This document shows positions 15,919 to 31,917 of a DNA stretch of 64,000 nt, piece by piece. The notes beneath the pieces were generated by a model, which saw nothing but the letters and a program-made list of their open reading frames with translations, had not been told where the DNA came from and did not search any database. Every line of letters begins with the position of its first letter. Positions within the stretch are counted from its first letter, which is position 1. This stretch comes from Flavivirga amylovorans (GTDB lineage: Bacteria > Bacteroidota > Bacteroidia > Flavobacteriales > Flavobacteriaceae), in the NCBI RefSeq assembly GCF_030540875.1, contig NZ_JAUOEM010000002.1, positions 712,926 to 776,925 of the forward strand, given 5' to 3'. The translations under genes and the position numbers were made by a program.

Positions 15919-15942
15919 TCCCCAGTTCATAAATGTATTAAT

Positions 15943-16078
15943 GTTATCAAGAAAGGCAGAGGGAATAGACCCGTTGAAGCCTTGGCAACCCTTTAACTTT
16001 AAAGAAGGTGCTAAATTCTACTAATGTTTAGAAATATTAGAAAGATAACGAAAAGTGTTTCCTTTACTTTTCTTGATG
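15943..16078 (+). promoter_or_regulatory. SAM-I (S-box) riboswitch upstream of split metH
   Basis: P1 pairs GTTATC (15943-15948) with GATAAC (16044-16049). In between are the conserved S-box landmarks: AGAGGGAATAGACCC, GAAGCC and GGCAACC in the P2/P3 region, AAGGTGCTAAATTC, and GAAAGATAAC closing P1. The segment 16050-16072 can form a 7-bp hairpin (GAAAAGT/ACTTTTC). Alternatively 16069-16077 can pair perfectly with 15946-15954 and break P1, so the two folds compete. There is no U-run after the hairpin. SAM binding should lower expression of the methionine genes that follow. Confidence 0.9.
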
Positions 16079-26654: not shown

Positions 26655-27551
26655 CTATTTTGAAGTTAAATCTCTGAAAAGTGATTCCAAACTAGCATTC
26701 TTTTGATTAAGCTGCAAAATTTTTAATTGATTATCGTGAGCAAAATCAAAGACATGAGATCGCATGTCTTCTGAGGTTTTAAAAGTAATTTCATAAACAA
26801 AGCCATGTGTGTTTGTTACATTTTTTACTTTTGGGAGTTTAAGTAAAAAAGCATCTTCAACACGATAATCGAATTCTACAATAACAGTTTGTTCTTTTTC
26901 ATCACGCAGTTCACTTAGTTTTTTATCTGCAACAATCTCCCCTTTGTTAATTATGATTACCCGATCGCACATAGCTTCAACTTCTTGCATAACATGTGTA
27001 GATAGAAATACGGTTTTAGTTTCTCCAATCGTTTTTATAAGATGTCTAATATCAACTAACTGATTGGGGTCTAAACCAGTGGTTGGTTCATCTAATATTA
27101 AAACATCGGGGTCATGTAATAATGCATTGGCCAAACCTACGCGCTGGCGATAGCCTTTAGAGAGCTGCCCTATTTTTTTATGAACCTCAGGTGTTAAACC
27201 AGTAAGTTCAATAACATCATGAATACGTTGTTTAGATACTTTGTAAATATTGGCGTTAAAGTTTAAATATTCTTTAACAAACATGTCTAAATATAAAGGG
27301 TTGTGCTCTGGCAGATATCCAACACTTTGTTGTACATGCTTAGTGTTTTCTTTTATATCATGTCCATTGACCTTAGCTTCACCTTCACTAGGGTTAATAT
27401 AAGTGGTTAATATTTTCATCATAGTAGATTTCCCAGCACCATTAGGACCTAGAAATCCAACAATTTCAGGTTTGTTGACTTTAAATGATATATTGTTTAA
27501 AGCTTTTTGCTCGCCATAACGTTTTGAAACTCCGATTACTTCAATAGACAT
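26655..27551 (-). CDS. gldA: GldA-type ABC transporter ATPase
   Basis: A 298-residue ABC ATPase with Walker A GPNGAGKST (35-43), signature LSKGYRQRVGLANALL (about 128), Walker B DVLILDEPT (about 150) and a C-terminal extension typical of gliding-motility GldA. In gliding Flavobacteriia GldA works with GldF and GldG; these are not in the window. Assignment to gldA rather than another ABC-2 ATPase rests on overall similarity to my memory of the family, so it is moderately firm. Confidence 0.8.
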   Translation of the reverse strand: MSIEVIGVSKRYGEQKALNNISFKVNKPEIVGFLGPNGAGKSTMMKILTTYINPSEGEAKVNGHDIKENTKHVQQSVGYLPEHNPLYLDMFVKEYLNFNANIYKVSKQRIHDVIELTGLTPEVHKKIGQLSKGYRQRVGLANALLHDPDVLILDEPTTGLDPNQLVDIRHLIKTIGETKTVFLSTHVMQEVEAMCDRVIIINKGEIVADKKLSELRDEKEQTVIVEFDYRVEDAFLLKLPKVKNVTNTHGFVYEITFKTSEDMRSHVFDFAHDNQLKILQLNQKNASLESLFRDLTSK

Positions 27552-27653: not shown

Positions 27654-27661
27654 CAATTTTG
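27654..27661 (+). promoter_or_regulatory. Possible -7 box for the aromatic leader transcript
   Basis: CAATTTTG differs from TAnnTTTG by one base and lies 36 bp before the leader peptide ATG. The nearest upstream TTG is 25 bp away, longer than usual, so this is a weak call. Confidence 0.3.
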
Positions 27662-27697
27662 ATTTCTTAAAATATTATTTACTTTAGCCTCATAATT

Positions 27698-27778
27698 ATG
27701 ACAACAGTATATTATACATATTTTAACAACTGGTTTTATTTCTTTTTTAGCAAAAGGGACGAGGCGTTGTATGTATAA
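27698..27778 (+). CDS. Aromatic-amino-acid leader peptide (attenuator)
   Basis: A 26-codon ORF, ATG to TAA, with five Phe, five Tyr and one Trp codons. Eleven of its 26 codons are aromatic, and residues 5-17 read YYTYFNNWFYFFF. It is followed after 25 bp by an intrinsic terminator (27804-27832) and then the aromatic biosynthesis operon starting with prephenate dehydratase. This is the architecture of pheL/trpL-type leaders: ribosome stalling at scarce Phe-tRNA or Tyr-tRNA would change RNA folding and allow read-through. The match of composition, position and downstream pathway is very hard to obtain by chance. Expression of the peptide has not been shown. Confidence 0.85.
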   Translation: MTTVYYTYFNNWFYFFFSKRDEALYV

Positions 27779-27803
27779 TTTATAACTATAAATTTTAAAT
27801 ATG

Positions 27804-27832
27804 AGTCTCGATGAAAATCGGGACTTTTTTTT
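27804..27832 (+). terminator. Attenuator terminator of the aromatic operon
   Basis: AGTCTCGAT (27804-27812) and ATCGGGACT (27817-27825) pair over a GAAA tetraloop with one T-G wobble, followed by eight Ts. CGAGGC (27760-27765), inside the leader ORF, can instead pair with GTCTCG (27805-27810) of the terminator arm, giving a candidate antiterminator. Confidence 0.88.
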
Positions 27833-27873
27833 GTTCAACTTTTAGTTGAACAACCTCAATAAAGATTGAGGGC
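27833..27873 (+). other. Two further hairpins between attenuator and pheA start
   Basis: GTTCAACT/AGTTGAAC (27833-27851) and CCTCAAT/ATTGAGG (about 27854-27871) are consecutive perfect short hairpins directly after the terminator U-run. They leave 21 nt of unpaired AT-rich leader before the TTG start. Role unknown; they could protect the read-through mRNA 5' end. Confidence 0.6.
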
Positions 27874-27894
27874 TTAATAAAATAAAACTAGATT

Positions 27895-28722
27895 TTGATT
27901 AAAACGGTAGCTATACAAGGAGTAAAAGGATCTTTTCATCACATTGTGTCTCAGCAATTTTTTGATGAGCCTGTTGATGCGATTGAATGCTTAACATTCG
28001 ATAGGGTGGTTGACTCTTTAATTACTAAAGAATGCGATGCGGCCATCATGGCTTTAGAAAATTCTATAGTAGGATCTATTATTCCTAATTATGCTTTGAT
28101 AGATAAATATGAGTTACATATAGTTGGTGAGCATTATTTAGATATACAGCATAATTTAATGGCATTGCCAGATCAGAGTATTGAGGATATAGAAGAAGTG
28201 TACTCTCACCCTATGGCATTGCTGCAGTGTAAAGAATTTTTTAAGCAATACCCGCATATTAAGCTAGTCGAAGATAAGGATACAGCAGAAGTTGCTCAAC
28301 GTATTCAAGAAAAGAAGCTTAAAGGAGTAGGTGCTATTGCAAGTACTTTGGCAGCCGATATATTTGAGTTAGATATTTTGGCAGCAAGTATTCAAACTAT
28401 AAAGCATAATGAAACACGTTTTGTTATTGTAAAACGAATAAATTCTGAGGTATCTGAAAATGACATTAACAAGGCTTCTGTTAAATTTGAAAGTGATCAT
28501 AAAAGAGGTAGTTTAGCGGCAATTCTTAATGTGATGAGCGATTGCAAATTAAATTTAACTAAAATTCAATCATTACCAATAGTTGAAACACCTTGGAAGT
28601 ATGCTTTTTTTGTTGATGTTACTTTTGAAAAATATACAGATTTTAAAAAATCAAAAGCTATAATTGATATTATGGGTGAAGGATTTAAAGTGTTGGGTGA
28701 ATATAAAAATGCCAAATTATGA
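27895..28722 (+). CDS. pheA: Prephenate dehydratase
   Basis: Converts prephenate to phenylpyruvate. The 275-residue protein begins (I)KTVAIQGVKGSFHH, has the catalytic TRF at 174-176 (HNETRFVIVK) and an ACT domain from about 193. The ACT motif KIESRP found in Phe-inhibited enzymes reads KIQSLP here. There is no fused chorismate mutase; that domain is on the DAHP synthase at the end of the operon. A stop codon two codons upstream and the lack of a nearby ATG mean the gene most likely starts at TTG 27895. It overlaps the aminotransferase by 4 bp. Confidence 0.95.
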   Translation: MIKTVAIQGVKGSFHHIVSQQFFDEPVDAIECLTFDRVVDSLITKECDAAIMALENSIVGSIIPNYALIDKYELHIVGEHYLDIQHNLMALPDQSIEDIEEVYSHPMALLQCKEFFKQYPHIKLVEDKDTAEVAQRIQEKKLKGVGAIASTLAADIFELDILAASIQTIKHNETRFVIVKRINSEVSENDINKASVKFESDHKRGSLAAILNVMSDCKLNLTKIQSLPIVETPWKYAFFVDVTFEKYTDFKKSKAIIDIMGEGFKVLGEYKNAKL

Positions 28723-29864
28723 TTGAAGCAGCAAATAGATTACAAACTGTAGAAGAATATTACTTTTCAAAAAAATTAAGAGAAGTAAACTTTCTTATAA
28801 CTAGCGGAAAACCTATCATTAATTTGGGTATTGGTAGTCCAGATTTACAGCCGCCACAAAAAGTTGTAGAGGCTATAAAAGAAGGATTGTTGGCATCAAA
28901 CGCTCATAAATATCAAAGTTACCAAGGGTTGCCTGAGCTAAGAGAGGCTATTGCTGAATTTTATAAAGAACATTTTTCAGTGTCTTTAAGTGCTACGACA
29001 GAAGTTTTACCTCTTATGGGCAGTAAAGAAGGGATTATGCATATTTCGATGGCATATTTAAATGAAGGTGATGCCGTGTTGATCCCAAATCCAGGATATC
29101 CAACCTATCAATCTGTTACAAAATTAGTAGGAGCGAAACCTGTTTTTTACGAATTAGATGCAGCAAATAATTGGTTGCCAGATTTTGAAGCTTTAGAACA
29201 ATTGGACTTGAGTAAAGTGAAATTGATGTGGGTAAACTATCCGAATATGCCAACAGGAGCTCAGCCAAATACTTATTTGTTTGAAGAATTAGTGGCATTT
29301 GCTAAGCGACATAATATTCTAATCGTTAACGACAATCCGTATAGTTTTATATTAAATGAATCTCCAAAAAGCATATTAAGTATTGAAGGAGCAAAAGACG
29401 TTTGTTTAGAACTTAATTCGTTAAGTAAGACCTTTAATATGGCAGGATGGCGTGTAGGAATGGTTCTTGGGGATAGTAAGCATATAAATAATATTTTGAA
29501 GGTGAAAAGTAACATGGATTCTGGTATGTTTTATGGCATTCAAAAAGGAGCCATAGAAGCCTTAAAGTGCTCAGAAATGTGGTTTGTTACTTTAAACAGT
29601 GTGTATAAACAACGTCGCGATTTAGTTTGGAAATTAGCAGACGCTTTAAATTGTACTTACGATAAAAATGCCACAGGGCTTTTTGTTTGGGCTAAATTAC
29701 CTGACTCTGTAAAAGCAGAAGCGTATATAGATTCGGTGCTTAAAGACAAACATATTTTTATTACGCCAGGAACCATTTTTGGTAGTAAAGGAGAAGGTTA
29801 TATTAGATTTTCTTTATGTGCAACAAACGAAGTTTTAGAAGAAGCTATAAAAAGAGTAGAATAA
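28719..29864 (+). CDS. Class I/II PLP aminotransferase (aromatic operon)
   Basis: 381 residues, fold type I. The PLP lysine is Lys237 in LNSLSKTFNMAGWRVG; other motifs are NLGIGSPDLQPP, YQSYQGLPELREAI, IPNPGYPTY and VNDNPYSFI. It resembles LL-diaminopimelate and aspartate aminotransferases. Its place between prephenate dehydratase (ATGA overlap) and prephenate dehydrogenase argues for transamination of phenylpyruvate and hydroxyphenylpyruvate, the last step to Phe and Tyr. Substrate range cannot be decided from sequence. Confidence 0.9.
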   Translation: MIEAANRLQTVEEYYFSKKLREVNFLITSGKPIINLGIGSPDLQPPQKVVEAIKEGLLASNAHKYQSYQGLPELREAIAEFYKEHFSVSLSATTEVLPLMGSKEGIMHISMAYLNEGDAVLIPNPGYPTYQSVTKLVGAKPVFYELDAANNWLPDFEALEQLDLSKVKLMWVNYPNMPTGAQPNTYLFEELVAFAKRHNILIVNDNPYSFILNESPKSILSIEGAKDVCLELNSLSKTFNMAGWRVGMVLGDSKHINNILKVKSNMDSGMFYGIQKGAIEALKCSEMWFVTLNSVYKQRRDLVWKLADALNCTYDKNATGLFVWAKLPDSVKAEAYIDSVLKDKHIFITPGTIFGSKGEGYIRFSLCATNEVLEEAIKRVE

Positions 29865-29957: not shown

Positions 29958-29961
29958 TGTG

Positions 29962-30813
29962 ATGAAAAATATATACATTATAGGAGTTGGGTTAATAGGA
30001 GGAAGTCTTGCTATAGATATTAAAAAGAATAATCCAGAAGCGGTTATCCATGGTATTAGTAGAAAACAGACAACACTTGATGAAGCTTTGTCGCTTAACT
30101 TAATTGATAAAAAAGCAACTTTAGAAGATATTGATAATGCCGATTTGGTTATTATATCTATACCTGTAGATGCTACGGTAAAGCTATTGCCAAGTATTTT
30201 GGATAAGATATCCGATTCAGGGTTGGTTGTAGATGCTGGATCTACTAAAGTAGACATCTGTAAGGTTATTGAAAATCATCCAAAACGTAGAAATTTTTTA
30301 GCCATGCATCCTATAGCAGGAACCGAACATTCTGGGCCTACTGCTGCAATCCCTAATTTGTTTAAAGGAAAAACAAATATTGTTTGCGAAGTTGAAAAAA
30401 CAGCATTCAAACTTCAAGAAAAAGCATTGAAACTTTTTGTAGATATTGGGATGCGTATTCGCTATATGAATCCGGAAGCACATGATAAACATATTGCGTA
30501 TATGTCTCATTTATCTCATATTAGTTCATTTATGTTAGGTAAAACGGTGATAGAAAAAGAAAAAAATGAGCGTGATATTTTTGATATGGCCGGTAGTGGA
30601 TTTGAGTCAACAGTTCGTCTGGCAAAGAGTTCTCCGGAAATGTGGACGCCTATATTTAAACAAAATAAAGAGAATGTCATTGAAACTTTAAAAGAATACA
30701 TCGATAACCTAAATCAGTTCAAAGAACTTATGGAAAAAGATGATTTTGAAGAAGTTTATAATGAAATGAAAAATACAAACCATATAAAACAAATTTTAAA
30801 CGGAATAGCTTAA
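29962..30813 (+). CDS. tyrA: Prephenate dehydrogenase
   Basis: Oxidative decarboxylation of prephenate to 4-hydroxyphenylpyruvate. MKNIYIIGVGLIGGSLAID is the N-terminal Rossmann motif; AMHPIAGTEHSGP and AYMSHLSHISSFMLG carry the conserved histidines, and FDMAGSGFESTVRLAKSSPEMW follows. It has 283 residues from ATG 29962; a GTG directly before it (29959) is the alternative start. It lacks a fused chorismate mutase. Confidence 0.93.
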   Translation: MKNIYIIGVGLIGGSLAIDIKKNNPEAVIHGISRKQTTLDEALSLNLIDKKATLEDIDNADLVIISIPVDATVKLLPSILDKISDSGLVVDAGSTKVDICKVIENHPKRRNFLAMHPIAGTEHSGPTAAIPNLFKGKTNIVCEVEKTAFKLQEKALKLFVDIGMRIRYMNPEAHDKHIAYMSHLSHISSFMLGKTVIEKEKNERDIFDMAGSGFESTVRLAKSSPEMWTPIFKQNKENVIETLKEYIDNLNQFKELMEKDDFEEVYNEMKNTNHIKQILNGIA

Positions 30814-30834: not shown

Positions 30835-31917
30835 ATGGAGAACAAAAAAGAAATGAGAAACTGGTTGGATGCATTAAACTTAGATCATCCTTTGGTTATT
30901 GCAGGACCTTGTAGTGCTGAAACAGAAGAGCAGGTATTAAAAATAGCCCATGAGCTAAAAGATACAGATGTTAGCTATTTTAGAGCTGGTATTTGGAAGC
31001 CAAGAACAAGACCGGGAATGTTTGAAGGTGTTGGTGCATTGGGTTTAAAGTGGCTGCAAAAAGTAAAAGCAGAAACAGGAATGAAAATCTGTACAGAAGT
31101 AGCGAATGCTGCTCATGTAAAATTAGCTTTAGAACATGACGTAGATTTATTATGGATTGGAGCACGTTCTACAGTGAGTCCATTTATCATGCAAGAAATT
31201 GCAGATGCTTTACAAGGGACAGATAAGCCTGTATTGATAAAAAACCCAGTAAACCCAGATTTGTCTTTATGGTTGGGAGGTATTGAAAGAATATATAAAT
31301 CAGGCGTTAAAAATATTGGAGCCATTCATAGAGGGTTTTCAACATATGAAAAAACCAAATATAGAAATATTCCGGAATGGCAATTGGCTATCGAGTTTCA
31401 AAATAAATATCCAGACATCCCTTTAATTAACGATCCATCACATATTACTGGTAATCGTGATATGATTTTTGATGTATCCCAAACTGCTTTAGATTTAAAT
31501 TTTGATGGATTAATGATTGAAACACATTACGATCCAGAAAATGCATGGAGTGATGCTGCACAACAAGTAACACCTAGTAGTTTAGTGCAAATTATGAAAG
31601 ATCTTAAAATTAGAAAAGAAACCAATGCAGAAGCGGAGTATAACAGTACTTTGGAGAATTTAAGAGCGCAAATTGATGTTGTAGATAATCAGATTATTAG
31701 TCTATTGGGAAAACGTATGGTAGCAGCTGATGGTATTGGAGCCCTTAAAAAACAGAAGAATGTTGCAGTATTACAATCCAAACGATGGAATGAGATTTTA
31801 GGGAAAATGGTTTTAGAAGGTCAAGATCATGGACTTAGTGAAGAGTTTATCTTAAAAATGTTTAAAGCTATTCACCAAGAATCAATTAATCATCAAGAGA
31901 AGATTATTAATGGGTAA
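30835..31917 (+). CDS. Bifunctional DAHP synthase (type I-beta) / chorismate mutase
   Basis: First committed step of the shikimate pathway joined to the branch-point step. Residues 1-260 form the TIM-barrel DAHP synthase (VIAGPCSAETEEQ, FRAGIWKPRTRPGMFEG, LIKNPVNPDLSLW, NDPSHITGNRD). Residues 265-355 form an AroQ chorismate mutase (LRAQIDVVDNQIISLLGKRM). In such Bacteroidetes fusions the mutase domain can act as the prephenate or chorismate sensor. It is the last gene of the operon and is followed by a strong terminator. Confidence 0.95.
   Translation: MENKKEMRNWLDALNLDHPLVIAGPCSAETEEQVLKIAHELKDTDVSYFRAGIWKPRTRPGMFEGVGALGLKWLQKVKAETGMKICTEVANAAHVKLALEHDVDLLWIGARSTVSPFIMQEIADALQGTDKPVLIKNPVNPDLSLWLGGIERIYKSGVKNIGAIHRGFSTYEKTKYRNIPEWQLAIEFQNKYPDIPLINDPSHITGNRDMIFDVSQTALDLNFDGLMIETHYDPENAWSDAAQQVTPSSLVQIMKDLKIRKETNAEAEYNSTLENLRAQIDVVDNQIISLLGKRMVAADGIGALKKQKNVAVLQSKRWNEILGKMVLEGQDHGLSEEFILKMFKAIHQESINHQEKIING

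Follow-up and report, generated by a model that had tools for sequence, protein, structure and literature searches.

Background

In Escherichia coli and other enterobacteria, the prephenate dehydratase gene pheA is controlled by an attenuator that comprises the leader peptide pheL and an antiterminator hairpin overlapping a terminator. The pheL peptide is rich in Phe and is not known to contain Tyr, and starvation for Phe is the only kind known to matter in this system. Attenuators with mixed control codons are also found in enterobacteria, namely those of the thrABC (Thr/Ile) and ilvGMEDA (Leu/Val/Ile) operons. The pheA leader of Flavivirga amylovorans described here resembles the pheL attenuator in possessing a leader peptide and an antiterminator overlapping a terminator in front of a prephenate dehydratase gene, but differs from it in that its peptide mixes Phe and Tyr codons and its operon also makes Tyr. 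With the thrABC and ilvGMEDA leaders it has in common the use of more than one control amino acid, although the amino acids and the phylum differ. The Rfam model of the enterobacterial element (RF01859, Phe_leader) matches positions 27758-27832 at only 17.4 bits (E 1.8), as against a gathering score of 55.

Within the Bacteroidota, the main text of a study of Flavobacterium psychrophilum offers strong clues that amino-acid operons are preceded by leader-peptide attenuators, and singles out a 5' element in front of pheA that is also present in other genera of the Flavobacteriaceae and is without Rfam hits (PMC9723704). That element, like the one in Flavivirga, is a structured 5' transcript region before pheA, and the two are very probably the same. 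Hence the word "undocumented" in the first-pass annotation of this DNA was not right, though the passages of PMC9723704 on this subject give no peptide, pairing model, Tyr content or range beyond the Flavobacteriaceae. Short ORFs reminiscent of leader peptides are mentioned for Bacteroides thetaiotaomicron in a passage of PMC7366714, and the accessible text of PMC2965389 contains no word beginning with "Bacteroid". Among the matches listed in searches for leader-peptide attenuation in Bacteroidota or Flavobacterium, which mostly left subscription papers outside their range, no other paper on a Phe/Tyr leader in this phylum was apparent by title or abstract. The element is real and is a well-supported case of a known kind of attenuator, partly mentioned in print before; what is new is its breadth, the evidence for alternative pairing, the Phe and Tyr code, its tandem arrangement in four cases, and the relation of the terminator-pheA spacing to the start codon of pheA.

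The pheA leader of Flavivirga amylovorans

The window, by which we mean the whole stretch of DNA analysed, spans 64,000 nt of Flavivirga amylovorans (assembly GCF_030540875.1, contig NZ_JAUOEM010000002.1, positions 712,926-776,925 of the forward strand). Its relevant features are as follows.

26655-27551, minus strand: ABC-transporter gene, the divergent neighbour upstream of the leader
27659-27687, plus strand: predicted promoter, with the -33 element TTG at 27659-27661 and the -7 box TACTTTAG at 27680-27687
27698-27778, plus strand: leader peptide ORF of 26 codons, MTTVYYTYFNNWFYFFFSKRDEALYV, with the putative Phe/Tyr control codons in residues 5-17
27711-27727, plus strand: region 1, within the codons for YYTYFN; pairs with 27766-27779 (the 1:2 hairpin) in the minimum-energy fold
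27760-27783, plus strand: region 2, which spans the 3' end of the ORF and the bases just past it; similar to region 4, with region 1 and region 3 as alternative partners
27760-27810, plus strand: antiterminator hairpin (2:3) of 21 pairs, with an energy of -13.9 kcal/mol as long as the terminator lacks its 3' arm
27803-27832, plus strand: intrinsic terminator (3:4), a 10-pair stem (27803-27812/27817-27826) with T8 at 27825-27832
27833-27851, plus strand: extra hairpin 1, in the spacer between terminator and pheA; not conserved
27854-27871, plus strand: extra hairpin 2 in the same spacer, not conserved
27895-28722, plus strand: pheA, prephenate dehydratase, TTG start (Pfam PDT)
28719-29864, plus strand: class I/II aminotransferase (Pfam Aminotran_1_2)
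29959-30813, plus strand: tyrA, prephenate dehydrogenase (Pfam PDH_N/PDH_C)
30835-31917, plus strand: DAHP synthase-chorismate mutase (Pfam DAHP_synth_1 and CM_2)

The 26-codon ORF of the first-pass annotation was recovered at 27698-27778 with its 11 aromatic codons (5 Phe, 5 Tyr and 1 Trp, 10 of which lie in residues 5-17), as was the U8 terminator behind it, and the Pfam domains bear out the order pheA-aminotransferase-tyrA-DAHP synthase proposed for the operon 3' of the leader. As the upstream gene is divergent, the terminator can belong only to transcripts of the pheA operon. In a shuffle of the leader region, a simple terminator scan is expected to find 0.8 sites of this kind, and by itself therefore proves nothing; the leader RNA as a whole (27692-27834) folds at -32.2 kcal/mol with a z-score of -4.2, which none of 200 shuffles equalled. 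The same annotation had proposed an antiterminator pairing of 27760-27765 with 27805-27810; this pairing exists, but it is merely the base of the 21-pair hairpin at 27760-27810. The 1:2 hairpin, which emerges in the minimum-energy fold, was absent from that annotation. The 1:2, 2:3 and 3:4 hairpins are mutually exclusive.

The promoter is predicted to be of the -33/-7 kind known from Flavobacterium, its -7 box being one mismatch away from TAnnTTTG, the consensus given in the main text of PMC9723704. Boxes resembling it occur within 330 nt upstream of pheA in all 81 loci of the close set defined below, by a permissive pattern drawn up after their alignment. In the 70 nt upstream of 72 further leaders, exact TAnnTTTG is found in 27, against 5.7% of shuffles, and the same pattern with one mismatch in 67, against 58% of shuffles. 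The location of the box places the expected transcription start near 27692, so that the leader ORF would open almost at the 5' end, with just a few bases before it. No Rfam riboswitch or T-box scores at the gathering level in the leader; the only match in the window that does so is a SAM riboswitch (RF00162, 86.5 bits) at 15941-16051.

Conservation of the hairpins in close relatives

The close set unites the window with 80 loci from other Flavobacteriaceae, giving an alignment of 80 distinct rows. When all 81 loci were scored by the rule given in the next section, without its energy cut-off, each had a leader, a terminator and a foldable antiterminator; the conserved Phe/Tyr-rich short ORF that had been anticipated upstream of pheA in this family is thus borne out. 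All 81 also show a stem followed by at least five T. The terminator is paired in 100% of 800 cells of the alignment, the 1:2 hairpin in 91.4% and the 2:3 antiterminator in 90.4% of theirs. In 10 of the 81 loci (L023, L025, L028, L032, L033, L043, L047, L048, L056 and L074) the stop codon lies earlier and the sequence of region 2 behind it is retained nonetheless, so that region 2 is kept as RNA.

The stem pairs were tested for covariation, as the first-pass annotation had recommended. Among the close loci, two-sided changes of a pair occur neither in the 2:3 antiterminator (0 pairs, against a shuffled mean of 2.2) nor in the 3:4 terminator, the latter being too conserved for such a test. For the 1:2 hairpin the controls are mixed. 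The percentage of pairing and the covariation score exceed those of all 500 shuffles, and two-sided changes affect 16 cells, where shuffles average 6.0 (0/500 as high); a control in which the pairing was slid by +3 likewise yields 16 such cells, at 30% paired. Counted by pairs, the two-sided changes of this hairpin number 6 against 4.1 (56 of 500 shuffles as high), and the further pair types 19 against 17.0 (reached by 63 of 500). RNAalifold on the close-set alignment predicts the terminator and a short hairpin, and not 1:2, which in the wider set is of moderate strength, 38 of the 62 unique leaders having a z-score below -2.

Wider distribution and coordinated change of the pairing regions

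PheA was searched for in three samples that overlap: 296 genomes of the phylum, 147 of the order and 109 of the class. Matches were obtained in 258, 81 and 31 of these, respectively, or in 323 genomes besides the window's own. The wider set consists of 131 pheA upstream regions (34 in returned loci and 97 fetched), which were chosen by hand with the stronger matches first and leave out many of the weaker phylum-level matches, such as all of family f17. The rule for recognizing the element called for an ORF of 8-60 codons in which 5 of 8 codons are aromatic, a terminator 15-110 nt behind this run, and the best duplex between regions 2 and 3. It was passed by 74 of the 131 regions as against 1 of 1310 dinucleotide shuffles; with a duplex of -6.5 kcal/mol or lower, the numbers become 73 (72 before the correction of one start coordinate) and 0 of 1310. 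The rule was drawn up when 114 of the 131 regions were already known, and of the 17 fetched afterwards 9 pass it. Eight more regions were accepted by eye: L212 and L221 from the later-fetched group, L093 and L096 with a weaker duplex, and L134, L143, L147 and L149 with an imperfect stem. The element is thereby present in 81 of the 131 further regions and absent from 50.

Arranged by kinship to the window, it occurs in 29/29 regions from the same family, 9/25 from the order, 38/48 from the class and 5/29 from the phylum, and at least one instance is seen in 15 of the 19 families that make up the class-level regions. Its presence follows the strength of the PheA match, with 80 of 96 matches at E <= 1e-50 having the element, as against 1 of 35 weaker ones. 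The element was seen in none of the 11 genomes examined from family f2, 10 of which have another PheA start, and is missing from 4 of the 7 examined from family f8. In two f8 loci (L110 and L119), pheA lies close behind a gene that was read by eye as aroA; in this family the leader may instead stand ahead of the gene preceding pheA. Four genomes of about 600 kb from family f63 (L164-L167) keep pheA and have no leader by the rule (0/4), as might be expected where reduced genomes lose regulation. A different kind of variation is seen in L133 and L224, in which two Phe/Tyr leader-terminator modules stand in series before pheA by the rule without its energy cut-off; L136 and L141 show the same tandem arrangement by eye.

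The 73 leaders identified by the rule contain 59 distinct region-3 arms, counting differences in length, and regions 2 and 4 vary in step with region 3 across them. Thus, regions 2, 3 and 4 read CGAGGC/GTCTCG/CGGGAC in the window, CAGGATT/AATCCTG/CAGGATT in L085 (also delimited as AGGATTG/AATCCT/AGGATT), GAGGCTTT/AAAGCCTC/GAGGCTTT in L097 and GCCGGGACT/AGTCCCGGC/GCCGGGACT in L131. Against shuffles of the interval between the aromatic run and the terminator, the complementarity of regions 2 and 3 reaches p <= 0.05 in 54 of 65 candidates and p <= 0.01 in 45, these 65 including one spurious candidate (L199; ORF score -5.6, p 0.37) that lies outside the 73.

The spacing of the parts is also maintained. 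Region 2 starts a median of 8 nt after the last aromatic codon in the wider set (interquartile range 7-10, full range 2-17) and 10 nt after it in the close set (range 8-11), while the stop codon ends a median of 20 nt past the start of region 2 (range -4 to 35 in the wider and -4 to 22 in the close set). Given the size of a ribosome, these medians imply that region 2 would lie just ahead of a ribosome stalled at the last aromatic codon, and that one which has reached the stop codon would mostly cover it.

The terminator-pheA spacer and the start codon

The extra hairpins behind the terminator, which the first-pass annotation left unexplained, fold well in this genome (27833-27871; -17 kcal/mol, z -4.6, 0/200 shuffles as good), but they lie outside the conserved switch, in a spacer that varies between lineages. 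Ten relatives with a similar spacer do not conserve them; RNAalifold on the window and these 10 keeps only hairpin 1 (8 pairs, one two-sided change and a positive covariation term). The idea that they are a dispersed repeat was rejected because the spacer is single-copy in the genome, a search with its 67 nt (27828-27894) returning itself and 21 short matches with E of 0.08 or worse. A different spacer of about 100 nt is found in L025, L074 and L077, placed 0-105 nt before pheA, with a hairpin followed by CT and an ATG start; the arms of this hairpin are ATCCTG and CAGGAT in L025 and L074, and ATCCCGA and TCGGGAT in L077.

The close set falls into two classes with respect to this spacer. In 40 of the 81 loci just 0-6 nt separate the T run from pheA, whose start codon is ATG in all 40. 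In the remaining 41, among them the window, the spacer is 22-105 nt long, and the start codons are TTG in 36 (33 by script, with L007, L036 and L066 added by eye as their match began a few codons in), GTG in 2 and ATG in 3. On a tree of PheA and the aminotransferase computed by a quick method, the spacing changes 12 times, at least 9 of these on starred branches. Nine independent pairs of loci show the start codon differing in the same direction in 7, in the opposite direction in none and not at all in 2 (sign test p 0.016). The spacing is likely to tune the translation of pheA: a strong start codon accompanies an abutting hairpin, which may gate initiation, and a weak one accompanies a free spacer. 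The likely start of pheA in the wider set is ATG at any distance in 66 of 73 loci (by a script that prefers ATG), and the relationship between spacing and start codon accordingly belongs to the clade of the window. A more specific proposal, namely that a Phe and Tyr switch widespread in one class has a hairpin acting both as terminator and as a gate on pheA translation in half of the close relatives, is offered tentatively, the balance of probability being somewhat against it.

Proposed mechanism and alternative explanations

The ORF, the three hairpins and their mutual exclusion, their joint conservation and their geometry are all read directly from the genomes, and on this basis the element very likely attenuates transcription by way of a translating ribosome, with charged tRNA-Phe and tRNA-Tyr sensed jointly. 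Ribosome-mediated attenuation, which had been advanced from the window by itself, is strongly supported by the comparison, an aromatic ORF and a terminator being combined with a region 2 that can pair with region 3 and is similar to region 4 in 81/81 close and 81/131 further loci. In the proposed sequence of events, RNA polymerase would start near 27692 and a ribosome would begin the leader at once. With ample Phe-tRNA and Tyr-tRNA, the ribosome would run through the FYFFF segment to the stop codon and cover region 2, leaving region 3 to pair with region 4, and transcription would stop at T8. A shortage of Phe or Tyr would stall it in the aromatic run, opening 1:2 and freeing region 2, which could then take up region 3 in the 21-pair antiterminator, and the polymerase would read through into pheA, the aminotransferase, tyrA and the DAHP synthase, an operon that would serve both products, Phe and Tyr. 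If the leader were not translated at all, the 1:2 hairpin would be expected to form and the terminator to win.

The codon content bears most directly on whether Tyr is sensed beside Phe. In all 73 wider leaders both amino acids are represented in the aromatic run within 35 nt before region 2; the detector accepts aromatic residues of any kind, so that this combination is not built into it, although five mixed aromatics would usually hold both. Two or more Tyr codons fall within this distance in 65 of the 73 leaders, and the last Tyr codon is never more than 29 nt from region 2. An attenuator responding to Phe and not to Tyr, as in E. coli, with the Tyr codons as passengers of RNA pairing or of base composition, would be in keeping with the position of pheA as the first gene of the operon, with Phe being the last aromatic residue before region 2 in 46 of the 73 leaders, and with the YTY codons that form stem 1 in the clade of the window, where some of the Tyr content goes with the region-1 stem. 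We nevertheless consider this unlikely, as Tyr is the last aromatic residue in the other 27 leaders, and makes up 14.5% of residues in the wider set (Phe 20.8%, Trp 1.4%), including clades with other region-1 sequences. The presence of both pheA and tyrA in the operon also fits joint sensing, and the support for this putative sensing of both, suggested in the first-pass annotation, lies in the codon content. Trp was considered as a third consistent control codon and dropped, with an occurrence in the run of 44/81 close and 23/73 wider leaders and a share of 1.4-2.2% of residues.

The other explanations concern the nature of the switch. That the hairpin might mainly gate translation where it abuts the start of pheA, the antiterminator freeing the start and termination being secondary, draws on the 40 of 81 close loci in which pheA begins 0-6 nt past the T run, always with ATG, and on the statement in PMC6847099 that secondary structure near the start reduces initiation in Flavobacterium johnsoniae. 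The 62-nt spacer of the window and the stem with at least five T in all 81 close loci, as an intrinsic terminator needs, render this distinctly improbable as the main function. A structured and conserved RNA with its own likely promoter and terminator could alternatively be a riboswitch that binds a ligand, or a small regulatory RNA with the terminator at its end, in which case the ORF would be incidental. Nothing in the leader reaches an Rfam gathering score, however, and the primary sequence is swapped freely between families that all retain the aromatic ORF and its spacing from region 2, so that the probability of this is very low. Even less credible is a functional small hydrophobic protein of 26 residues: the aromatic peptide is indeed conserved in the Flavobacteriaceae, but its length and residues vary freely, with F, Y and W replacing one another, and in 10/81 loci the ORF ends earlier and the RNA downstream of its stop codon persists.

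Related leaders and implications

The joint Phe and Tyr attenuator favoured here has candidate counterparts in the same genome. Leader ORFs that are respectively rich in His, Trp and branched-chain residues precede the genes for HisG (MNFIQLHHHHFHICSQAN; L204), a chorismate-binding protein (MNIILNNTWWWSFRNLRS; L206) and IlvD (MKKQILNIVSIIVIVIISQR; L208), and each is followed by a hairpin and a T run, the hairpin behind the second of these ORFs being read by eye; the duplexes of regions 2 and 3 are weak (-7.9 kcal/mol for his and -7.3 kcal/mol for ilv). These his, trp and ilv leaders resemble the pheA leader in combining an ORF of matching codons with a hairpin and a T run, and differ from it in the amino acids concerned. 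Leader-peptide attenuation accordingly looks like a general device in this genome.

The switch recurs in many relatives despite strongly altered sequence, and would explain how a single operon that makes two amino acids can respond to each of them. These bacteria do without Shine-Dalgarno sequences (PMC6847099). The spread of a Phe/Tyr attenuator across many families that lack these sequences would imply that translation of the leader is coupled to transcription in them, and the attenuator may offer a ready reporter for such coupling.
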